From Lineolata rhizophorae (lineage: Eukaryota; Ascomycota; Dothideomycetes; Lineolatales; Lineolataceae), in contig MU001692.1 in NCBI GenBank assembly GCA_010093515.1, forward strand, positions 107,305-171,304: a stretch of DNA of 64,000 bases, written 5' to 3'. The position numbers and the translations under genes are program-made. Positions 7,205 to 23,220 of the stretch are shown here, one piece after another. The number at the start of each line of letters is the position of its first letter. The stretch's first letter is position 1. The notes under the pieces are model-generated. The model was not told the origin of the DNA and searched no databases. It saw only the letters and a list, made by a program, of their open reading frames with translations.

Positions 7205-10200
7205 ATGTCTCTTGCAAATGGCGCGTGTGATAGTCCATCGGGAGCAGGGAAATCTCTACTGCGCTTACCAGATACCCTAAGCAAGTTCGAAGGCGGAAAG
7301 GACAGCTGTGCTTCAAGCAGCAATGTGACATACTCACAAGAGCCCCAAAACGAGGAATCCGACAGGGCAAAGAAAGTCAAATGGAAGGCGCTCTTCCACT
7401 TCAGTAGTCGCGCCCACCTTCCCACACTTTGTCTTGCTGCTCTCTTTGCCATCGCGGCTGGCATGGTCGTCCCCGTACAGGCCGCCTTCCTCGGTCGCAT
7501 TTTTGACGAATTCTCCAAGTTTGGCGCCGCAGAGGTGGATGCGCAGGTGCTACTGGATGAAGTGTCTAAGGTGTGCACGTACTTGGTGGTGCTAGGTTCA
7601 CTCGGATGGGTGCTGCATAGCGGCATGTTCATGTGCTGGCTGATGTTCGGTGAGCTTCAGGGGAAGAGTGCGAGGGATAGACTGTTCAATGGCCTTTTAC
7701 GGAAGGAGCAGACGTGGTACGATCTAAGAAAAGATGGTATTGGGAGCCTAACGCCGAAGCTGCAACTGTATGGCCTTCCTCTTATCCCGGTTCTAGTTGT
7801 TCCACTTTGGCGTCTCACTTTCTACCCATTAGGCATGTCTTCGAACTCACCCTCGCGACCGCTCACCCACTCGGTCTTTCCGTCCAATGCCTTTCTACTG
7901 CTCTGTCCTCCTTCGGCCTCGCCCTCTACTACTCCTGGGAGCTCTGCCTTGTCACCCTCTCTTCCGTGCCCATCGTCGCCCTTATTCTCTCCTTCCTCTC
8001 CTCCCACATGCAACCCCACATCGCGGCGCAATCTGCGCACCTAAGCGCCGCCGCGCACGCCGCGCTCTCCGCCTTCTCCGCCATCGAGACGGTCAAGTGC
8101 TTCAACGGGCAAGCCCTCGAGCTGCGCAGGTACGCCGACGCCGTGTCGGCGGCGGCGCGAAGCTACAAACGGCAAGCGAATTATTTGGGTCTGCAAATGG
8201 GCTTCAGGCACGTGGCGACGTTTGGGATGTTCGTTCAGGGGTTCTGGTATGGGAGCGCGTTATTGGACGAGGGCAAGATCAGTGCCGGAGAAGTGGTCAC
8301 GACTTTCTGGGCCGTCTTGTTGGCAGTGCTAGCGTTCACGGAGTTCTTGCCTCATATCATTGTGTTGGAGAAGGGGAAAGTGGTAGGGGACTTGCTAGGG
8401 GGGGGTTGTGGCGGACATTGAGAGCGGGTTGAGTGAGAGTGCGAGAATGTTATTAAGAAGAGAGGCGGGGGAAGAGAACATGGAGTTGGAGAAGAGCGGA
8501 AATGTGAGGGGTGAGATTAGGTTGAAGGATGTAAGTTAACTTTCATGTCTATGTGGCTTTTCCTCTCATGCGAGTCCTTTGAAAAGAACTAGACACTTAC
8601 GCCAGGCCGTTAACAAGTAGATCTCATTTGCCTACCCAACGCGTCCAACGCAACCGTCGCTCTCGCACGTCGACATGACCTTCAGAGCTGGCGCCATGAC
8701 ATTCGTCGTCGGCAGAAGTGGTTCCGGAAAAAGCACCATCGGTCAACTCCTCCTTCGCTTCTACCTGCCCGCCTCAGGCAGTATCACACTGGATGAAGTC
8801 CCTATCACTGCCATAGACGCCTCTTGGCTCCGCGAGCACATCGCGCTCGTCGAGCAGATGCCGACCCTCTTCGCCACCTCCGTCTACGACAACATCGCCT
8901 TCGGCAGGCGATGGCGGCAGCAGCGCCGTCAGCATCAGTACCGTCACTACAACATCATCGGCACGAAGGCTAACGCCAACGCTGAAGCTGCGGACCGCGC
9001 GCTACTCGACGCTCAGGTCAAGGATGCGGCGAGTTTCGCACTCATGCGCGATGCGGTCGCCGACATGCGGGATGGAATCCACACGCTAGTGGGCGAGCGC
9101 GGTGGAGCGCTGAGCGGTGGCCAGCGGCAGCGCGTTGCGCTGGCGCGGGCGAAGGTGCGGGATGCCCCTGTGCTGGTGCTAGACGAGGCGACGAGCGCTC
9201 TGGATGCAGCATCCAAGGGCAAAGTTATGGATAGGGTGAGGGAATGGAGAAAGGGAAGGACGACGGTTGTCGTGACGCATGATATTGGGCAGATTGGCCA
9301 GGAGGATTGGGTATGGGTGCTGGAGGAGGGGAGAGTTGTGCAGGGCGGTAGAAGGTGGGAGTTGGAGGAGAAGGAGGGCGCATTTAAGCGGTTTGTGGTA
9401 GAGGAAGAGGGAGCGAAGGAAAGGGATGTGGAGGCTGTGGAGGCTAAGGAGGTAGATGTGCGGATGGATGCTAGAGAATCCCGACGTGGGACATCACAAG
9501 CACCTGAGAGTCTGCCGGAGGCATACGAGCGCGAAACACAAAGGAAAAGTCGTACTTCGAGCATATTCGCGGCTCCCTTGGATGAATCTGTCAACCGGAG
9601 GGGTTCTACAGCAATGCTGCAGGCGGCTGCGCCGATTTGGCGTCTGCTCCCAGGCTCTCCGCGTCCTGATGCGTATACTTCTCGACAGCCGAGTACAGTT
9701 GGCTATGGTGGCAATTTATCAGTACCGGAGTCGCGTCGTCATTCAAGACAAGGATCGTCGCCAAACCGGCAATCAGCGCACTCATCGATGTCAGTTCGGT
9801 CGTCACTCGAGATATTCTCGCCACGAGTGTCTAACGAACGCATAAGACTCGAGAGTCGTATGCGACAGTCGCTGCATGTGAAGAGGCTGAGTCTTATGGA
9901 AAGAGAGAAAAGGGATAGTGAAATTTTAGGTCGGAGACGAAGCTCTTTAGACGACGCTTTTACGCCTGCGTTCCACCCGAGGAGCTCGATACAGATGGCT
10001 CGAAGGGATGCGACTAAGGAATTGACGCCGTCCAATGAACAACAGACGACAGAACGAAGCCTACCAATCCGCAAAATTCTTGCCACAGTATGGCCGCGAT
10101 TGGGTTTTTGGAATAGAGCAGTTCTATTTTTAGGCATGCTCGCTGCCTTGGTTCACGCAGCAGCAATACCAATGTTCTCCTACCTTTTCGCGAAGCTGTT

Positions 10201-11962
10201 GGGAACTTTTTTTATACCTGAGGATCGGGAAGTCAAGGCCAGACTATACTGTCTGGCTGTGCTAGGTATCACGGTGGGAGATGCCATCGCAACCTACCTC
10301 ATGCATTTTCTCTTGGAGTATTCCGGGCAGGGGTGGGTTAACAGTATCAGGTTGGAAGCGATGAGGCGGATCTTGAGCCAACCACTACAGTTCTTTAGCG
10401 ACGACAAGAACAACGTCTCAACCCTAACGGAGGCATCGAGCCACTATGCTGAGGAAATGCGAAACCTGTTGGGTCGTTTTGCAGCGTTGCTCCTTGTCGC
10501 GGCGCTGATGATGATTATAGCTGTGGTTTGGAGTCTGGTAAGTGCGTGGAAACTCACATTGGTTGGCTTGGCCTGCGGTCCGATCATGCATGGCATCACA
10601 TCTACAAACGAGCGAGTGGACAACATTATGGAGAGAAAGCGTAGCGACGCCATCGAAAGCATCGGAGACATATTTATGGAAACCTTCACGCAGCTAAAAG
10701 CTGTCCGCGCTCTCACTTTGGAGGACCATTTCCGGCGCAAATACATGAAAGCTACCGACCGTGCGCTGAGTATCGGGTTAAAGAAGGCCGTGTTCGCCGG
10801 AATCTTCTATGGCATGACGAACTCGACTATCATGTTCATCGAAGCGCTTCTGTTTTACTACGGCGCGAAAATCCTTGGAGAAGGCAGCACGTTTTCTGTC
10901 GTCGATGTTACTTTGGTCTTTACACAGCTTCTGTTCGCCCTCGGCAATGCAAATGTGTTGAGCTCCATGATTCCACAGGTCAGCTCATCTAAAGATGGAG
11001 CCACCCGCCTGCTGAAGCTGTCTAGACTACCTCTCGACTCATACGAGACGACGGGATATGCCCGTATGCCTTTCGTCGGTGACATTCGTTTCAACCGTCT
11101 GACTTTTGCGTACCCGTCTAGACCAGACGTCAACGTCCTGCGCGATGTCTCGTTTACCATCCCCGCAGGCAAGTGCACAACCATCGTGGGTCATTCGGGC
11201 TCTGGCAAGTCTACCATCGCCTCGTTGCTACTCAACCTCCACCCTGCGGGTAGCAGCAACGGGGCCTCGACTCGCGCCCCAATCACTCTCTCTGGCCGCG
11301 ACATCCGCCGCATTCATACGCCTTCGCTGCGCAACCTCATCACGCCCGTTAGCCAGACGCCGATGCTCTTCCCAGCCTCCGTAACTGCAAACGTCGGATA
11401 CGGCCTACTTCCATTACCTTCCGCTTGGTCTTCCTCGCCGACTCCTTCTCCTAGGCTACTATCTCGCATCCGTGCCGCAGCAACCTCTTCTGGCATTGAC
11501 GGATTTATCACTAGCTTGCCGCAAGGATATGATACGTTAATCGGCGAAGACGGCCTGGGCCTGTCCGGTGGACAGGCTCAGCGCGTTGCAATTGCGCGGG
11601 CGCTTGTGCGTGAACCAAACGTGCTCGTGCTGGACGAACCGACTAGTGCGCTAGACGTAGAAAGTGCACGGTTAGTGCGAGAGACAGTAGGGCGGTTGGT
11701 TGAAGAAGGGAGGGGGATGGCAAGTGGAAAGAACGGTGGGAGAAAAATAACAGTCGTGATTATTACACATGCCCAAGACTTGATGACTGTGGCGGACCGA
11801 GTTGTAGTGCTGGAGCACGGGACGATGGTCGAGGAGGGTGGATATAGGGAGTTGCTTGCGAAGAGAGGGAAGTTTGCACGGCTAATAGACAGTGGCGAGA
11901 ATAGCGGCATTCAGTTCGAAGGGATGCGAAAGGCGAATTGGAAGGGAAAGAGCTGGCAGTGA
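7205..11962 (+). CDS. Ste6-type ABC transporter (a-pheromone exporter family); frame changes at a G8 run
   Basis: Full-size ABCB transporter (TMD-NBD-TMD-NBD) of about 1,530 residues, resembling fungal Ste6 exporters of farnesylated a-type mating pheromone; substrate is inferred from family only. Exons: 7205-7767, 7833-8530, 8621-11962. NBD1 has Walker A GRSGSGKST (about residue 451), signature LSGGQRQR and Walker B VLVLDEATSALD. NBD2 has GHSGSGKST (about 1277), LSGGQAQR and VLVLDEPTSALD. A long Ser/Arg-rich linker separates the halves. Exon 2 does not stay in frame: at the G8 run (8398-8405) the reading frame ends, whereas seven Gs would read on through VADIESGLSESARMLLRREA to the next exon. 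The exon phases independently require one base fewer. It is therefore either a homopolymer sequencing error or a real frameshift that would remove both NBDs. The chosen ATG (7205) is the first in frame. Confidence 0.85.
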
Positions 11963-12284: not shown

Positions 12285-13068
12285 CTACTGGGTGCTACTC
12301 GAATAGTCAATATGATATTGCGAAAGAATCAGAAAACAGAGCAAAGGGCATACCTGTGCCGTGGTTTGTTCATGGCTCGTATCATCTGGAGTGGGACGTA
12401 CGAAGATCCCTAATTCAAGGGCGTCCGGGACGTTCCTGCCTCTGCACCGTCGCTCGTACCCTCGAGTGACTACATGGAACGAGATAATAGTGGCTACGCC
12501 TATATACAGCGGCAATGTAGCCATACTGATTCTCGCAGATCCCAATATGACCATAGAAAATGCCTCCATCAACAACAGGATAAATGCCTCCTTCAACAAC
12601 AGGATAAATGCCATCATCAATAGACAGATCCTGCATACCCAAAAGGGTATGGAGAACGACATTGATAGGACGTAGCTAAACCAGGCTATGGCCCCAAAAA
12701 TCACAACACTGATATCAAATAAGCAGAAGTCCACTAGGGAGTGAAATACCCTGATGAATTTTAGACGACTCACAAGTGTACTAAGCCGCCGGTTGCAGGC
12801 GAGCTGGCTAGAACCAGGCGTACGATACCAAGAGCCATAAATATCCATGAGCTACATAGCGGGCCACGCTTTCGAACAATGTCGCGGAGAGACTTCGAGA
12901 AGCATTTGATGCCTCGCATATATCGATATGAGAAAAACTTGGTCATCATTTCTGGGATGAGCCAAAGAATGAAGACAGTCCAAGGCAAGTTGGCTCTTGA
13001 ATTGAAGGATGTCGAAAGATAAAGTCCAGAGAGAGGGTTTTACGAGAAAAGTAGGCTTCCTGCGACAT
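12285..13068 (-). CDS. Small multi-pass membrane protein, unknown family (member 1 of a possible trio)
   Basis: I do not recognise the family. A phase-consistent minus-strand model has three exons: 13068-13044, 12993-12774 and 12708-12285, giving 222 residues (669 bp including stop). Donors are GTAAAA and GTGAGT. The first junction is the weakest part of the model. The first membrane segment has WTVFILWLIPEMMTKFF followed by SYRYMR. Further hydrophobic segments are around SWIFMALGIVRLVLA, VVIFGAIAWFSYVLS, ICLLMMAFILLL and MATLPLYIGVATIIS. A 24-bp tandem repeat encodes two similar octapeptides (AFILLLKE, AFILLLME) within one of them. The C-terminus is hydrophilic; a GTATGC donor near the end leaves open another last exon. 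It converges with the ABC transporter. Confidence 0.4.
12561..12623. repeat. 24-bp tandem repeat, about 2.6 copies
   Basis: Two near-identical 24-bp units (12561-12584 and 12585-12608, one mismatch) and a degenerate partial third. They lie inside a predicted membrane segment of the minus-strand gene and duplicate eight residues in frame. Confidence 0.85.
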
Positions 13069-13521
13069 TTAGAGAAGCAAACCATGACCGACTAAATGTG
13101 GTATTGGGCTCCGAGCAATAAAATCCCAGTGATACAGCTTACGCGGCGATGTGATGCCAACGCATCGTACTACGCCCATAGCAGGCTTAGACGCAACAAT
13201 ACAAAAGGCGTCGACTCCGCCACGTCTGCCTGACATTCACCTAGGCTTCGTGCTCCCAAAACAAACTCTATTTTCGTCTGAACTTTTGCGGCAGACTTGG
13301 GGTGTCCAAGCTCCTAAAACACAGAGGTTATTCTACTTAAGGTAGCGCTTTTGCTGGCCAGTTGAGGCGACCATTTCTCAATGACGAATTCAGCCTAACT
13401 ACCTTTTGTCTTTTAGGTAATCATATCATTCAACTTTTGCTCGGGACCACTTTCACATTCGAGTTTGTGGGGGCATCGAGACTTACAATAGTCCTCGGCT
13501 AGATCACCATCGAGGAGAACC
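13069..13521. other. Divergent intergenic region
   Basis: 453 bp separating the minus-strand and plus-strand membrane-protein genes; probably a shared promoter. No known operator is recognisable. Confidence 0.45.
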
Positions 13522-14345
13522 ATGGCAAATTATCTTGTTTCGCAGGCTTCGGATTTGAAGATTGCAAATGAGAGACGCGAGAGGCAGCATCGCAAGTGAG
13601 TTTAACACGTGCATTTGGACAATACGGTAATACATCAAGTGACGTGGAATCGTGCTGACGTTGTTTCCAATAGATATAGAAATCTCCTTTGGTAATATAG
13701 GACTTCCCACGCTAACGCCGACTGCAATAGCAGCGGCGTAGGAGACGACTGGTATGAGAATAATGAATGGAACACTGACTATGCCAGTACGCCCGGGCCA
13801 CATTACCGTTGGAGAGGATTGATTATCTTCCCATGGCTGCTCGCCGAACTTGTAACGTTGAACTTTTATGTCCGCCAACAGCTACAAAAAGATCCGCACG
13901 CTTGCGGAACGGTATGTGACTTCCGCCGAATACGATGCTGCAACAGACAGGGGACTACGTCGACATAAAGCTAACCGGTACAATGGTTTAGAAGCATCTT
14001 GGAAGCACTTTGCCGAAGCATTTTGGCAGCATTTTGCAGAAGTTCCTTCCAGAACCTTTGGCAAACCCTTCTCCGGGCTTACTAGTCCTCGCACTCCTCG
14101 TGTTTTACTTCTGCATCACAGCATTCTACAACATGAACAGAGACAATCCCCTACAGATTGCAGTTCTGAGCTGCACCTTCGTCTCCATTACCGTTTCTAC
14201 ACTATCGGCAATAGTCGACATTCAGACGCATCTGCAAGTCTACTTTCCTCTGGCAGTCACCTCTGGGCTACTTCTCTCGAGCGTTCTGTGGTACGTCCTA
14301 AGTCATCTGGCAGCAAGGGAAAAGCCTCTAGAATTAAATGTCTAG
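13522..14345 (+). CDS. Small membrane protein, unknown family (member 2 of a possible trio)
   Basis: Unrecognised family; 208 residues in the preferred model. Exons: 13522-13595, 13674-13691, 13731-13911, 13992-14345. All junctions are GT..AG with GCTAAC branch sites near two acceptors. The 18-bp second exon is optional: because its length is a multiple of three, a single 135-bp intron (13596-13730) also keeps frame. The 39-bp intron in the micro-exon model is short. The protein has a charged N-terminus (KIANERRERQHR), a first hydrophobic segment with GLIIFPWLLAELVTLNFYVR, and three more (LLVLALLVFYFCITAF, the segment around SCTFVSITVSTLSAIV, and PLAVTSGLLLSSVLWYVL). No signal peptide. ATG has a purine at -3. 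It resembles the 22504-23220 product in its second half. Confidence 0.6.
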
Positions 14346-14446
14346 AAAAACTGGTGGATTTGAGCGGCATTGGCAAATAGATGAATGGTGTGATGAGGTC
14401 GAGCTCTGATTTTCGCATCGCTTTGGGATTTCACGCATCGCTATTT

Positions 14447-14476
14447 AGATTTATTTTATTTTATTTATTTATTTAC
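14447..14476. repeat. AT-rich TTTAT tract
   Basis: Run of TTTATTTTATTT-type repeats about 100 bp downstream of the membrane-protein stop codon. Probably 3' flanking low complexity. Confidence 0.7.
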
Positions 14477-15366
14477 TTGTCGTTTTTGCGTACCTTGAAG
14501 GTTTTCGTTTCCATGTATCGCTTTAGTTGTTGATGTATTTGAATTGTTTTGGATTGGCGCAATTCCTCTCGATTTCTTGAAGTGGTTGCACTGCTAGATT
14601 CCATGTTTACGCTGAGGGAAACAAGCTCTCGACGAGCGCCTCGTTGGAGGCTTTGAATTGCATTCAGACCCCTGTATGGCGCAAAGCGGCCCCGTTTAGC
14701 CAATCAACGGGCAGGGAGAGCAAGCCTGCACTGAGCGTCACGTGGGACAGCGCGCGCGTCGTGCAAGCAAACTCCGCACTGCCTGCACCCGGCAGCGTCC
14801 GCGCGGGCATCAAGATGAGTCAAATAGGCTGGTGCCTGGCAGGATCCACTATTTACATGCGCATGTAGGACGGCCGGTCAGCAAATGAAGCGGGCCAGCC
14901 GGCGAGCGGTGACTGGACGGAGTCCAAGGCTTGGCTTCCGCGCGTACCAAGGCAGCACAGCGAGTCAGAGTGTGGCGCCTCCATCGCGCTTTGCAGCCCC
15001 GACTCGCCGATGGCACGACCCACCGACACAAGCGTTTCTTCGCGGACCGCCAAGAAGAAACACCGATGTCCGACGCCTGTCGTCGATTTTGGTTTAGAGA
15101 GCTTCATATTCGGTCCTTCCCCTGGATCCTTCACAATGCTGTCCACATGTATTTAAGCTCTTACGCAGCGCTTGGAACTTTCAGACGGTCCTCTTAACGG
15201 TAGGTGAATTCTCCTTCCATCTCAGGTCTCTGCTTGAATCGAACGTATTCGACTCAAGAACTTCGTCCTCAAAGTCTACACCAACAATCTCCTCAGTCTC
15301 AATTTACTTTTCTTCTTCTTCAATCTCACATCTCCACCAATACTTCACTCCACCGCCTGCCCAAAC
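14477..15366. other. Intergenic upstream of the monooxygenase
   Basis: No gene seen. The last 150 bp are pyrimidine-rich (CTTCTTCTTC, TCTCACATCTCC) as in fungal 5' leaders. Confidence 0.5.
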
Positions 15367-16635
15367 ATGGGCCCCCTCTCCCACCCCATCCTCATAATCG
15401 GCACCGGCATCAGCGGTCTCGCTCTCGCCCAATCCCTCAAGAAGCACCACCTCCCCGTCCGGGTCTTCGAAAAGGACTCCCCACAAAAGCCGCGCCTGCA
15501 AGGGTACCGCATCCGCATCAACGGCGACGGCCAACGCCCCTTGCAAGCCTGCCTACCGGCGCCCCTCTGGGACCTCTTCCTCACGACGTGCCACGCCGCC
15601 ACGCCGAGCGTGCTGAACTACGACGCGCTGAGCGGGGCCGAGGTGGGGCGGATGACGGGCCCGCCGCCGGGGCGTCCGGCCCACGACGTCGTGCCGCGCG
15701 TCGCGGACCGCCGCGTGCTCCGGGACGTGCTGCTGCGGGGGCTGAGCGAAGAGGCCGGCGAGGTGAGCTACGGGCGGCGCTTCGCGCGGTACGAGGTCGA
15801 CGAGGCGGCGGGCGTGGTGCGGGCGTTCTTCGCGGACGGCTCGGTCGAGGAGGGGTGTCTGCTCGTGGGCGCCGATGGCGTCGCCAGCGCGGTCCGCGCC
15901 CAGCTCGCGCCCGGGCACGTCATGATCGATACCGACGCTCGGTGCGTTTATGGGAAGACGGTCTTGACGCCGGCGCTGAGCGAGGCCGGGTTCCCGCGGG
16001 AAGCGGCGGAGATGATGGCGGTGGCTCAGGATGGGAGTAAGGGGGGGGACAGCCCCATTATGCTGTTTATGGACCCGGTGCGGTTTTGTCGCGAGGCGAG
16101 GGAGACGCAGGATGCCGTTAAGATCCCGGAAGACTACGTGTACTGGGTGTTTGGAGCGCGGACGAGCTTGTTTGGGCTGAGCGATGAGGAACTGCACAAG
16201 ATGAGCAACGAGGAGTGTGTCAAGCACACGGTGGAACTGGCAAAAGAGTGGCACCCCTCCATGCGCGCGCTGCTCGAATTGCAGGATGAGGAGCAGGCGA
16301 GCGCGATTCGGATTTCGGCAGCGAAGCCGCCGCTCAAGGCTTGGGAGGTCAGCAAGTGGGTCACGCTCATCGGAGACGCTGTGCATGCAATGCCACCGAC
16401 GGGTGGATCGGGCGCAAATACCGCGCTGAGGGATGCGGCGGGGTTATCGGAGGTGATTGTGAGGGATGTAGAAGAAGGAAGAGTAGGTGACGGGAGGACG
16501 GATGGGTGGAGTCTGGGTATGTATGAGGCAAAGATGAGAGAATATGGGAACGAGATGATCGAGATGTCGTTTAGGGGTGGGAAGCGTTTGATTGGCATGC
16601 CGCCGACCGAGGAGTGTAAAAGGATCGAGATTTGA
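15367..16635 (+). CDS. FAD-dependent monooxygenase (class A, salicylate hydroxylase-like fold)
   Basis: Intronless 422-residue flavoprotein of the FAD_binding_3 group, which uses NAD(P)H and O2 to hydroxylate small, often aromatic, substrates. The dinucleotide-binding motif is IIGTGISGLALA at residues 10-21. A DG-type motif (VGADGVASAVR) is near residue 168, and the second FAD motif LIGDAVHAMPPTGGSGAN is near 335. There is no C-terminal membrane anchor and no N-terminal signal, so it is probably soluble. The ATG at 15367 leaves the usual 9 residues before the Rossmann strand. No polyketide synthase, NRPS or transcription factor lies nearby, so it does not look like part of a biosynthetic cluster. 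Substrate cannot be inferred. Confidence 0.9.
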   Translation: MGPLSHPILIIGTGISGLALAQSLKKHHLPVRVFEKDSPQKPRLQGYRIRINGDGQRPLQACLPAPLWDLFLTTCHAATPSVLNYDALSGAEVGRMTGPPPGRPAHDVVPRVADRRVLRDVLLRGLSEEAGEVSYGRRFARYEVDEAAGVVRAFFADGSVEEGCLLVGADGVASAVRAQLAPGHVMIDTDARCVYGKTVLTPALSEAGFPREAAEMMAVAQDGSKGGDSPIMLFMDPVRFCREARETQDAVKIPEDYVYWVFGARTSLFGLSDEELHKMSNEECVKHTVELAKEWHPSMRALLELQDEEQASAIRISAAKPPLKAWEVSKWVTLIGDAVHAMPPTGGSGANTALRDAAGLSEVIVRDVEEGRVGDGRTDGWSLGMYEAKMREYGNEMIEMSFRGGKRLIGMPPTEECKRIEI

Positions 16636-18460
16636 AGGTACGGATATTGGTTGATGCCGTTGGGAGTGAGAAGGGTGTTGGAGTTGGATGCTCCATGCAA
16701 TTGATTGATGGCATTTATGGCCGAGGATAGCACGGTCATGGCCACCCGGCAAGGATTTGATACCCAGCTTAATTATCTGTATAATAGAAGCAAAGTTCGT
16801 CTGTTCTCCAAGTCATTGGATTCTCTACGCTGCAAACTGAAGTTTGTGTCGGCTGGGGGAGTGGTAATTTCCTGATCCGGTTAGCTCACATCAGCAAATG
16901 ACTAAGCACGCTCGGCCCGGCCGGCTCGCCGGTGATCCTGGCCCATGTTTTAATTTTCCCGCTAGCCGCAGCATCGCAGTCTTTTCCCTCTCTATCCTTC
17001 CAGTTTATACCATGTACGCCCACATCCTTTGCGTCCCGGCACGACGCCGACTGCTAACACTCGAATTCACAGATGATGAAAGCCTAGCGTGCAGGATATG
17101 AGCGGACTCGTCGTACGCCGCAGTAGGATCCTCCCTCCTCGAGGTGTTCGAGCGGTCGACTGCGGCGAGCGTTTGCGGAGCCGCGTGATATCTGCGTTCG
17201 GCACACACTCTCTTGTTACATCTCACGGACGCTGAAGAGGCATCTCTGACTACGAACAAGACTGGCAAGGTGTCGTTTGTTTCGGCTTGGTTCCTGTTTC
17301 GGGCTGAGTCGGCGGTGGTCCGTGGAGATTGGGGTCTTGTTCTTCGCTGAGTGCAGGGGGCCTTGAGGTGCCAAGTCGACGGTGGAGGTTTCAGCTATGT
17401 GTAGTAAAGCGTGTTTGTCACATGTGATGGCTACACCCACAAGAGTGAGTGGAGCTCCTCGCAATCAAATAGGAGATTTCTGTGGGCAATAACGTGAGGG
17501 AGTGGTCTTGCAATTCGTGATGTCCCGCCGGCTTTTGCATGCGGATCTGGAGCTCCTCACCCGTCTCCAACGTCTTCAGACAGCCAGGCGAAGAGCAATT
17601 GGAAGAGCAATGCCAACAGCTCGTCTTTCTCCCGAGCGGCTTCGCCGGGTCGGAATGGAAGGTGTAGTGTAACAGCGTTGCGACACTTGTAGGGAAGAGG
17701 CACCCCGCACAATTCGGTGTGAATCGGGACTGTGCAGCGCTTACATACAAGAGCGGCAGTAATCGGCCCTAGAAATAAGGCCCCTGGGGAGAAAGTAGCA
17801 ATATAGACGGTATTGATTGGCGCGAGCAGCAGAGGGCCTCAGCCAGTGGAGAGGGTAAGCGTGGTGTGGCAGCAGCCTGCGGCCCGGCGTTCGGCGGCCG
17901 CTGCGATCGTCATTCGGCCGGGGACCCTCGGACCCTCGCTGCGCTGCGCCGACCCAGCAAGCCGGCCAAACTGCAGGCAAACCGCCTCGCAGCTCGGCAT
18001 ACAGCGCATCACCGCCGTCGCCAACGGCACACTCTACCTCCTCTTCCACCCGCCACTCCGCCACCCTTCCCTACAGCCCTTTCATCTCTTGAATTTCCTT
18101 TCTCCATTCCCGTCCGCCCGTTTTGCGCCTCGCTTCCCCTTCGGCGAACCCGTCATTCAACCCGCGAAGCACCCGTCGTCCGCTGTCGTCCGCTACCACT
18201 TGCCCGCGCCATGGCATAGGCCCGGCGATTCGCTGCGAACGCCCGGGAGATCGGCCAAGCTTGAGCTCCGGGACCTCTACGCGCTGTTCTTCTTTCCACC
18301 TTGCGCCGTCCGCCTACGCCGCCTCGACCCGAACGCCTCGTAAACACCACCGCGACACGCCACAGCCACACTCCTCCACCGCACACTTACACGACGGCGC
18401 GGGGTGCAAGCCGGAGAGCGGCGCTGCTCTCCCGCTCGCACCGCAAGCCCGACGCCGCAG
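16636..18460. other. Intergenic, 1.8 kb
   Basis: Contains the monooxygenase 3' flank and the long GC-rich 5' region of the clathrin adaptor gene. Open frames here are overlapping and compositionally biased; none is convincing. Confidence 0.5.
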
Positions 18461-21173
18461 ATGTCGGGCTCTTTTGAGAAGTCGGTCAAGGGCGGGACGA
18501 AGATTAAGGTGCGCATTCATTGGCCCTCCTAGTTGCCATCACCGTTGTCTCGTCGGGGGTGCTGCCCGGTTCCGCCACGGAAACGGTGATCTCGGACTCC
18601 CTAACCCTGGTACATACTTACACCCAGCCGGAAAATTGTGGCTAACTTCTCTGGTCCTTTCAAAATAGCTCGCGGCGCCCAAATCCAAATATGTGGAGCA
18701 CATCTTGATCGCGACACACACGGGCGACGCGGGCGTGGCCGAGATCTTCCGCGCGCTGCAGAACCGCCTCCGCGACTCGACTTGGACCATCGTATTCAAG
18801 TCCCTCATCATCGTGCATCTTATGGTGCGCGAGGGCGCGCCCGACGTCACGCTCAAGTTCCTCTCGCACAACCCCCACCGCAAACTCGCCATTAACAACT
18901 TCACCGAAGGTAGGCTCATGCTCCAGGGCCACTTCAGTAGGTTGACGCTTTTATGTGTCTCCTTTGGAATCCCGGCTTGGAACACCTAACTAGAAGAGGG
19001 ATCCGCCGCTTGCTGGACACAATACTAGCGTCTACGTGACACTAAGCCGTTTCCGCCGCCTATTTCTGGGCCGATTGTTTGTGTTTTAACTTCGGACAGT
19101 GCTAATATTATCTCTTCTCAGTTCAAACCCAAGGCCGCAATATCCGCGCCTACAGCGAATATCTCATCCAGCGCGCTAGTTCCTATGGCTCCACCAAGGT
19201 CGACTACGTTCGCGGCGGCGAAGGTAGACTAAAGCGCTTGACGGTGGAAAAAGGACTCCTTCGCGAGACCGAGAGCGTACAGGATCAGATACGGGCGCTG
19301 CTTAGATGCGATGTATGTACCAATCCCTTCAACCAGATTTCCCCGAAACTGACAATTATGTAGTTCCTGTCCCATGAACCCGAAAATGAGATTACTCTGA
19401 CTGCCTTCCGACTCCTTACCATGGACCTCCTCGTCCTCTTCCATGTCATGAATGAAGGCACCATCAATGTTCTCGGTGAGTCCAGCATAGCCTATCATAC
19501 CGGTTGAACGCGCAGCAGCCCTCTTGAGTCTAATAGGGTTCTTTACTCCAGAGCACTACTTCGAGATGTCCCATCCGGACGCCGAGCGCGCCCTATCCAT
19601 CTACCGCACCTTCGTCAAGCAGACAGATCAAGTCGTGCAGTATCTCTCTATCGCGCACCATTACGAAGACGCCACCCGCCTCGAGATCCCTAAGATTAAA
19701 CACGCGCCCACTAGCCTCGCTTCATCACTCGAGGAGTACCTGCGGGTTCCGGACTTCGAGATCAACCGCCGCCAGTACTTGGCGCAACAGGAGGCGAAGC
19801 GGCTTGGCAAAGCGAAACCTGCAGATTCAAAACCGGCAGCGAAACCAGCTGGAGTGAGCAGTAGTGGATTCCCGTCTCCAAAGGCGTCGGCGGCCGCGCC
19901 TGTGAAGCAGGAACAGCCCAAGGGCCCGGCGCCGGATCTGATCGACTTCTTCGAGTCGATCGAGCAGAACCAGCAGCTTATGGCTCAGCCAACTGAGATG
20001 CCGCAGGGATTCGGCCAGCAGCCGCAGCCGACGGGACAGTTCGGCCAACAGCAACAACCTGCGTTTGGCGGTGGAATGCAGCAGGGCATGGGCCCCCAGA
20101 TGACTGGTTTCCCGGGACAGCAGACGGGGGTTGGCGGTATCATCGGGCAGCAAACAGCGTTCGGCGGCATGTCGGGGCAGCAACAGCAGAGCACGAATCC
20201 GTTCGACCAGCAGCAACAGCAGCTGCAGCAGCTGCAGCAGCAACCCATGCAACAGCCCGTGCAGCAACCCATGCAGCAGCCGTCGTTCACAAGCGCACCG
20301 ACCGGGTTTGTCGCCGGTAACGGGTTCTTCCCGGGCCAGCAGCAGGCCCAACAACCCCAGCACCAGCCCTTCAGCTCGCAAACGACATCGCCGCTCCAAA
20401 GCATCCCGCAGAACGGCGTGCTCTCCTCTTTCGGCCAACAGCCGCCGCAACAACAACAGCCCTCACCTTTCGGCACTTCGGCACCCTCCTCCGACCTCTC
20501 CGGCGCCCAGTCCACTAACCCCTTCCGCCACTCCGTCATGCCGCCCCAGTTCACGGGTGCCACTGCCACCACCCCGACCGCCTCTTCCTCCTCTCCCTCG
20601 CCCTTCACCCCCTCCGCCACCGGCACCACGACCGCGTCCTCGTCGGGCCTGGGCCGCTCCGCCACGAACCCGTTCGCGAAACAGACGACGGAATTCGGAT
20701 CCGGTTCGCCTTCCCCCTCGCCCTTCGCCTCCGCGCCGCCCGTGCCGCCCATGCCGAGCCAGCCGGCCGCCGGCTCGCCCTTCGCGCCCCAGCCGTCTCT
20801 GCTGCTGCAGTCGGCGTCCACGGGGACCAATCCGTTCGCGCGGCCGGCGAGCCACTCGCCGGCGTCGGCGGGGCCGACCTCCAGCGGGGGCCCGTTCTCG
20901 CCTCCGGGCGGAACCGGCGCGCCGGCCGGTGCCGGAGGCGCCCTGATGCCGAACCCGACGGGCAGCACGAATCCGTTCCGGCAGAGCGCCTTCGTCAACC
21001 AGAGCTCGGGACAGGGGTGGCAGAACGCGCAGGGGATGCAGGGCACCATGGGGGGCTTGGAGGGGTTGGAGACTGTGAGGGTGTTTCCGAGGCCCGGGGA
21101 GGGGAGCGCGGGGACAGGGGCGGGTGCGGGGGGCCTGCAGGGGCAGCAGCAGCAACAGGGTGGGGGGTGGTGA
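18461..21173 (+). CDS. AP180/YAP180-type clathrin assembly protein (ANTH domain, NPF motifs)
   Basis: Endocytic adaptor that binds PI(4,5)P2 through its ANTH domain and recruits clathrin and EH-domain proteins at the plasma membrane. Exons: 18461-18508, 18669-18909, 19122-19312, 19364-19475, 19552-21173; 737 residues. The ANTH domain occupies about residues 1-270, starting MSGSFEKSVKGGTKIK and including KSKYVEHILIATH, VHLMVREGAPDVTLKFL and NVLEHYFEMS. The acceptor at 19551 was chosen because it restores NVLEHYFEM; an upstream AG (19536) would insert five residues. The remainder is disordered and Gln/Pro/Ser-rich with a poly-Gln stretch. It has five NPF motifs (near 410, 517, 568, 621, 668), known EH-domain ligands, and DLIDFF near 326. 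The last exon is strongly GC-biased at its 3' end. Confidence 0.93.
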
Positions 21174-22503
21174 GATGGGATTGAGGGGGATTGGAGGTTG
21201 TGGGCATGGTGAGTGCGTGATGGTGGGGGGGCGGGGGTAGTAAGTGGGTGGTGAGAGTCCTTCAGGAGGGCGGAAAGGCTTGCCCATGGTGAGCGCATAT
21301 GCGAGCGCTGATGGTACTAGCGGGTGATGCGGCATCGCTGAGGCGGCGACTATTTTTACCTCTGGTGAGCGTCTGGGATCACGGTCGTGGCTTTTGTGGC
21401 ACGTAGGCGTTCTAGGCGTTTCTTGCTGCTTTTGAGCCTCCTTTTTCTTATCATTAGGTTAGTGTAGGGAGTAGAAGGGTGAGTTGTGGGTGCTAAGAAA
21501 AGGGGTGTGAGCTCTTGCTGGTGATAAGGTGGCCGGAAGATCGAAGGTAATTATTGCTTTTTTTATGGTTGAGGAGCTGCGGGTGTGCGGGTGTGGAGAG
21601 GTAAGCTTTGAAGTGAGAGGACTCTCGTTCTGGCCTCTGATGCCTGTGTTTGGATTAAGCCTTGAGTGTTATTATTATCTGGTTCTGAACGGGACGGAAC
21701 ACGCTGGTTGGTTTATAGCGTGAATCGAGATTATTTATTGATGCTGGGGGTATGGGTGTTGGTGATATGATTACCGGGGTGTTCGTGTGCGCTGGTAGGG
21801 AGTGATGATTCATACTGATTTAGATTCGGTTTGCAAGTTAGAAGAGTAGTAGTCACGTTGTGAGGTCATCCAATCGTCAGTGCATGGGCTAATTCTTAAG
21901 TAGACTTGACGAAGTAGGTATGCCATGTAAGCTTTATGCTCAGCTCGTTCTCAAAGCATCTCCAAAAGTGGATAGGCGCTTAATGCGAGATAGGGCCTAG
22001 TACTCAAAACATTGAATCCAGAAAGAAGTTCATATACTAGATGCCGTCAGGCTCTTCAAATGAATTCTATGCTTGTTAGAATCCTTTGGTGTCGAAATCG
22101 TGCTATGGAGTCATCACACCTAGATGTAATCAAACGCCGCTGGTCAGGGTCTTATGCCATTTGTGCTGTCAGAGTGTTCTTCTGTTGCTGCCCCGCACAT
22201 AACTAAGGCACCGCACGAAGTGCAAATACAAAACGGTGAGTAAGTCATGTAAGTTCGCAGTTCAACAGAACTGGAATATTAGAATTGGGCTATGCCTAGC
22301 CTAGACAGTAATTTTCAAAACCTACTTTTCCGAAATAAAGAGAAAGGGCCGAAGAAAGTTAAGAGACATAGAAATAGTTGCTCAGTTACTGACAAATTAG
22401 CCGGTAAAATCTGGGCCAATGCCTAGGGCACAACCCTCGACAACCGCATTGACACATGCATCCGTCATGAGTGACGAAATGGCTAGGGAAAATTGCAACG
22501 CGC
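21174..22503. other. Intergenic, 1.3 kb
   Basis: 3' flank of the clathrin adaptor and downstream flank of the minus-strand membrane-protein gene. No coding frame or RNA recognised. Confidence 0.5.
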
Positions 22504-23220
22504 TCATTCAGCCCATGAATACGTCAGGTCCACAGGGGCTCCCCAAATTCGGAATAGCCCCTCCCGTGTCATTTCATGAATTTGGGCGCTGGCAAGAAGA
22601 GAAATGAAGACACTTGGGCAGACGAAGATAAGCTGAAGAGTGACTTGGTCGCTCGTTACTAGCGACCCGAAGATAAGGCTTCCAAGGGCCCCGTATGATA
22701 TGATATCAAACTGATACCGATCCCTAGGGTGGAGGAAGCAGAACATGGCCATAAACATGAGGAAAGCTGCAAAAACCGCACAGAGAAGACTGTCCGTGGG
22801 CTCCGCAATCAAGTTGGGCTGAAACCAGCGGGCAAAGCTGATAAGAGGTTTGAACTGTTGGGTTTAGCATGATTAGGAAGTGCTTTGCAAGTGACATACG
22901 GATGAAGAGTTTGATGAAGCCTAAGGTTAGAGTTCTCACATATTGTAAAGCTTTCGGCATGCCTGCGCTATGTTCGGGACGCGTGTAGACGAGATTGAAG
23001 CCCAAAACCATCTCCAAGAAGCCCACAAAAACAGCGAGACGCTTCAAATGTTTCTTCCAACGTTGTAAAACGTCAAGCTCACGAACAGAGTCCGACCAGA
23101 TCCTTCATTGTACAATTCAGCAGCTTGTTTAGTAAAAGGTGCGAAAATATGCACATACCTCCGACGCTCAGGTAAGTCTTCGGGCTCCTTGCCCCTCGAA
23201 TTAGTGCTGGGCACTGGCAT
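22504..23220 (-). CDS. Small membrane protein, unknown family (member 3 of a possible trio)
   Basis: Unrecognised family; 191 residues. Minus-strand exons: 23220-23159, 23102-22940, 22854-22504. Phases agree at both junctions, donors are GTATGT and GTGAGA, and branch-like CTAAAC sites precede the acceptors. The protein starts with a charged segment (SRGKEPEDLPERRRIWSD). A first hydrophobic segment follows, LAVFVGFLEMVLGFNLVY then TR, with Glu inside. Later ones are LLCAVFAAFLMFMAMFCF, GALGSLIFGSLV and LQLIFVCPSVFISLLA. The region from NLIAEPTDSLL through HPRDRYQ to QLIF can be aligned by eye with PLANPSPGLL, NMNRDNPLQ and QVYF of the product at 13522-14345. No neighbour suggests a function. 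Confidence 0.6.

Follow-up and report, generated by a model that had tools for sequence, protein, structure and literature searches.

Two predicted genes in the window (the whole 64,000-nucleotide stretch of DNA analysed here), members 2 and 3, appear on balance to be paralogues, together with a third gene on another contig, the C22 gene, in a small family of four-helix membrane proteins that has diverged strongly. The best reading is that this family is old, and as far as can be judged from the sequences, members 2 and 3 are probably distant cousins that are linked to each other through the C22 gene. The genome examined comprises 30,968,845 bases in 48 contigs, and the window corresponds to contig C23:107305-171304. 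Its DUF6594 genes, which belong to a fungal family, and its short introns suggest that the genome is that of a fungus; a 5.8S rRNA gene was looked for and not found. The first-pass annotation had suggested that these two proteins and a neighbouring one, member 1, share a common ancestor and arose by local duplication. Common ancestry gains support for members 2 and 3 by way of the C22 gene, from shuffle and leave-one-out tests, and not for member 1, which the family profile scores below the shuffle mean. Local duplication gains no support from the results: with the third gene located on a different contig, and with no significant direct similarity between members 2 and 3, recent tandem duplication of the two is unlikely. 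Near members 1 to 3 lie genes for an ABC transporter (8621-11959), a FAD-binding monooxygenase-like protein (15382-16632) and an ANTH-domain protein (19491-21170), and three of the eight ORFs scanned have no match in Pfam.

The exon models proposed earlier for members 2 and 3 could be rebuilt at 212 and 191 amino acids, with consistent phases. Member 2 (13522-14345, forward strand) is predicted to be spliced from three exons. In this model, exon 1 (13522..13595) provides the start codon and a soluble N-terminus, exon 2 (13701..13911) carries the first hydrophobic segment, GLIIFPWLLAELVTLNFYV, and exon 3 (13992..14345) encodes the conserved three-helix C-terminal region of 117 amino acids plus the stop codon, which was used in the shuffle and profile tests. 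The first intron is 105 bp long (GTGAGT...ATATAG), and the second, of 80 bp (GTATGT...GGTTTAG), is in phase 0, with 74 and 211 nt of coding sequence upstream. No in-frame stop is found in the 117 codons of exon 3, where 4.8 are expected at random. The third frame of this exon is stop-free too, and the reading frame was chosen because of its similarity to the C22 gene. A 172-codon ORF in another frame (13862-14380, forward strand) overlaps the last two exons. Member 3 (22504-23220, reverse strand) is likewise predicted to have three exons, at 23159..23220, 22940..23102 and 22504..22854. Its first intron, of 56 bp, requires a weak AAG acceptor in the model. Exon 2 carries the first hydrophobic segment, LAVFVGFLEMVLGFNLVYT, and is followed by an 85-bp intron (GTGAGA...CAACAG) in phase 0, with 62 and 163 nt upstream; an alternative donor 40 bases downstream of the frame-keeping one breaks the frame. 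Exon 3 encodes the same three-helix region (116 amino acids plus stop) with the loop HPRDRYQ, and has no in-frame stop in 116 codons against a random expectation of 4.3. By codon use, the chosen frame of exon 3 narrowly ranks first among the six in both genes. The proteins had been described as multi-pass, and indeed members 2 and 3 each contain about four hydrophobic segments (Kyte-Doolittle 19-residue mean of at least 1.4) and member 1 contains several.

The third gene (contig C22, loci L005/L041) was found by a genome-wide search with member 2 at E 0.30 and 28% identity, and the reverse search with the C22 gene as query returned member 2 at E 0.033. Its model consists of a 126-nt exon, a 64-bp intron and a 120-codon open frame. 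The last exon contains an A-D-P-S turn, the loop HRDDRYQ and a last helix in common with members 2 and 3, and its shared part has no stops in 104 codons. Just three of its segments reach the hydrophobicity threshold, and the best frame by codon use for this exon lies on the opposite strand. The last codons of the gene are supplied by a dispersed 174-bp repeat (L041:995-1168, equal to contig C22, 193994-194167), which has TGTCG...CGACA ends with AGAAA flanking it on either side, and which matches ten other loci. Exact 5-bp flanking duplications were seen by eye in six of ten aligned copies, with L018 and L024 left out. The TG...CA ends suggest that the repeat is a solo LTR or a similar element. 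Because the C22 copy has a short N-terminus and takes its last codons from an inserted repeat, it may be in decay. From a reading of the ORFs, its neighbours are unlike those of members 2 and 3; one ORF beside it (L040-L041) reads like a proteasome Rpn8 subunit.

The kinship of the three genes was measured on their last exons, with 2000 shuffles per pair that preserve the hydrophobic pattern. Members 2 and 3 score 72 and 65, respectively, against the C22 gene, where the shuffle means are 27.0 and 27.5, and none of the 2000 shuffles was as high in either case. The direct comparison of members 2 and 3 gives 41 against a shuffle mean of 30.3, which 146 of 2000 shuffles reach, and is not significant. 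At full length, hydrophobicity-preserving shuffles were as high in 0/1000 cases for member 2 and the C22 gene, 2/1000 for member 3 and the C22 gene, and 77/1000 for members 2 and 3. The comparison of member 3 with the C22 gene, both on the last exon and at full length (score 59; 2/1000 and 0/1000 in two kinds of shuffle), is the independent result, since member 3 was not used in choosing the C22 gene. Members 2 and 3 had earlier been aligned by eye between PLANPS/LIAEPT and QVYF/QLIF, and this alignment is present in the sequences; it is not significant in the direct shuffles, and its support comes only by way of the C22 gene. Profiles built with one copy omitted were run against 3,688 ORFs (233,547 residues). 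In all three cases the omitted copy ranked ahead of every other ORF apart from the training genes themselves, with E values of 9.9e-7 for member 2, 2.2e-4 for member 3 and 4.5e-5 for the C22 gene; the next unrelated ORF appeared at E 0.59, 0.28 and 3.4, respectively. The whole genome holds about 265 times more residues, and scaled to it these values become approximately 3e-4, 0.06 and 0.01.

Features outside the alignment scores point in the same direction. In all three predicted gene models, a phase-0 intron directly precedes the shared exon. An A-x-P-S/T turn comes before its first helix, and a polar loop between helices 1 and 2 reads HRDDRYQ in the C22 gene, HPRDRYQ in member 3 and NRDNPLQ in member 2. 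The open frames of 117, 116 and 104 codons each have about a 1% chance at random, with four to five stops expected, while identity to member 2 is 17-18% for member 3 and 27-30% for the C22 gene. Direct searches do not join members 2 and 3: phmmer comparison of the two gives E 2.1 and 0.75, genome searches with either do not list the other, and the C22 query does not list member 3 in a genome search to E 10. Two further queries connect the copies and are not independent evidence. A consensus query finds all three, and the member 3 exon, after five of its residues had been changed to those of the consensus, finds the C22 gene at E 0.0013, in this case because the query was shifted towards its target. 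The first-helix exons of the three genes do not match one another, so it is the last exon that carries the case for a family. A signature of Glu plus an aromatic/Arg end in the first membrane segment had been proposed for the window proteins. It did not survive comparison: shuffles of the first helix were as high in 1380/2000 cases for members 2 and 3 and in 1487/2000 for members 1 and 3, and the first hydrophobic segment of the C22 gene lacks the Glu. Members 1 and 2 gave a score of 33 (24/2000), a weak result because it is the best of six pairs.

Three copies, namely member 2, member 3 and the C22 gene, were found in the 31-Mb genome. No fourth copy came from genome-wide searches with six protein queries (member 2, member 3, the C22 gene, the consensus, and the altered and unaltered member 3 exon) and one codon pattern, in which only prefiltered candidates were scored. 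The codon pattern for RDRYQ, which is unable to match member 2 or the C22 gene, occurred at 15 genomic places against 13 for a reversed control, and only the place within member 3 itself fits the profile. On viral contigs, none of 145 pattern matches was confirmed. A fourth copy may have been missed, because the pattern excludes copies of the member 2 or C22 type and a loose prefilter preceded the scoring.

The proteins had been called undescribed, and this stands as far as Pfam and NCBIfam extend, where nothing scored over the cut-off. In Pfam, member 2 has no match and members 1 and 3 have matches below cut-off, which for member 3 include PAP2_C (E 0.09) and DoxX_3 (E 0.10). In NCBIfam, members 2 and 3 have no match and the last exon of member 1 has two, far below cut-off; HpnN, at E 0.002 for this exon, reaches 16 of 752 bits and was set aside. 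No literature on a family of members 2 and 3 was found at the level of titles and the beginnings of abstracts. A profile search of the PDB gave best E values of 3.2 and 2.3. AlphaFold2 models the shared exon as three long helices with low confidence (pLDDT 62, two sequences), and Foldseek with this low-confidence model reached E 3.2 at best in the PDB and 1.2 in the viral set. MARVEL and SUR7/PalI are fungal four-helix families that are comparable in size and helix number. However, they are absent from the Pfam matches listed to E 10, and by eye the first loop shows no conserved pair of cysteines.

A distant relationship of the shared exon to a known domain, either the C-terminus of DUF6594 (PF20237) or TM7S3/TM198 (PF13886), seems highly improbable. 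The former has 19 exon matches on nine contigs of this genome, 17 of them over cut-off, and its C-terminal part resembles the shared exon in a layout of three closely spaced C-terminal helices. When six such C-terminal parts were aligned and compared with the shared exon as profiles, however, hhalign gave a probability of 0.2% (P 0.24), and the shared exon has no Pfam match to DUF6594, which was rejected as its parent. The TM7S3/TM198 domain has seven helices. The majority consensus of the family matches it weakly over about 65 residues at E 7e-4, whereas in ten shuffled controls E did not fall below 0.025 for any family. Against the PF13886 gene of this genome, shuffles were as good in 17/1000 cases for the C22 exon, 1/1000 for the consensus and 6/293 for the family profile (4.7 bits). 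On the other hand, the consensus match of 19.7 bits stays below the cut-off of 29.2 and belongs to a synthetic sequence; the natural copies, members 2 and 3 and the C22 gene, do not themselves match PF13886 in Pfam, and members 2 and 3 score no better than their shuffles against the PF13886 gene (451/1000 and 437/1000). For PF13886, the shuffle results are thus mixed.

The resemblance of members 2 and 3 might also be explained by convergence of hydrophobic segments with no common descent, which we regard as very unlikely. Hydrophobic proteins do yield spurious matches, the direct comparison of the two falls short of significance, and the E value of member 3 becomes marginal at genome scale. 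But pattern-keeping shuffles never reach the last-exon scores against the C22 gene, the turn and loop residues in common sit outside the helices, each copy is recovered when left out, and the intron phase is the same in the gene models. Alternatively, the genes could be relics, that is, decaying paralogues without function, and this too is unlikely. The weak splice site of member 3 and the entry of the C22 copy into a repeat at its 3′ end agree with decay, as does GC3, which is low in the shared exons (0.51-0.57) compared with 0.79-0.95 in six of ten reference ORFs. Three other reference ORFs are also low (0.51, 0.58 and 0.60), so that in GC3 the shared exons are like the less biased genes of the window, and frames of 104 to 117 codons have stayed open despite the low identity to member 2.

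That all three window proteins form one family, in which member 1 has lost the loop motif, is highly improbable. Member 1 (12285..13068, reverse strand) is a separate orphan ORF, and a place for it in the family of members 2 and 3 is not supported. The model of 222 amino acids with the LIPEMM helix, proposed in the first-pass annotation, can be built, but this requires a weak first intron (GTAAAA...CAAGAG). The list of splice-site choices with at least 180 amino acids has ten entries, and two of these give 222. Like members 2 and 3, member 1 carries a Glu in its first hydrophobic segment, and hydrophobic segments also succeed one another in its C-terminal part. Its first-helix score with member 2 and its comparison with the C22 gene (101/2000 shuffles as high for the last exon, 90/1000 at full length) also lean towards kinship. 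Against kinship, the family profile scores it at -1.7 bits, where the shuffle mean is -0.24 and 430 of 490 scored shuffles are as good or better, and its last exon scores 24 and 29 with members 2 and 3, below shuffle means of 31 and 30. Among the matches listed for the family profile in six-frame ORFs, with E up to 20, none came from 12285-13068. The intron preceding its last exon is in phase 2, unlike the phase 0 of members 2, 3 and the C22 gene. Elsewhere in the genome member 1 has a weak 54-residue match on contig C10 (E 0.08), and the structure model of its last exon is of low confidence (pLDDT 58); this model and that of the shared exon are too weak for folds to be compared. A short tandem duplication, AFILLLKE/AFILLLME, was noticed by eye at about 12559-12612 of the window (reverse strand).

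If members 2 and 3 and the C22 gene are one paralogous family, its core would be the homologous last exon, with three hydrophobic helices, a turn, a polar loop and a phase-0 intron ahead, as the tests support. An upstream exon would encode the fourth helix. Flanking positive residues, judged by eye, would place both ends and the polar loop in the cytosol. Because the frames stay open at low identity, the shared exon may have been under purifying selection in the past. Inspection by eye revealed no conserved catalytic pattern, and the most likely role, tentatively read from these sequences, is that of an accessory, non-enzymatic membrane protein, which might pack with partners through the three-helix region and use the polar loop as a contact site.

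It is quite unlikely, in our estimate, that these genes represent an unnamed fungal four-helix family whose rapid divergence has left paralogues only some eight kilobases apart no longer recognisable as relatives of each other. If true, such fast divergence would suggest a role in an arms race or in self-recognition. The importance of the finding is modest. It gives an example in which short orphan membrane genes can be grouped through a distant third copy where direct comparison fails, and the defined exon and the three-copy profile provide a means to seek the family in other fungi.
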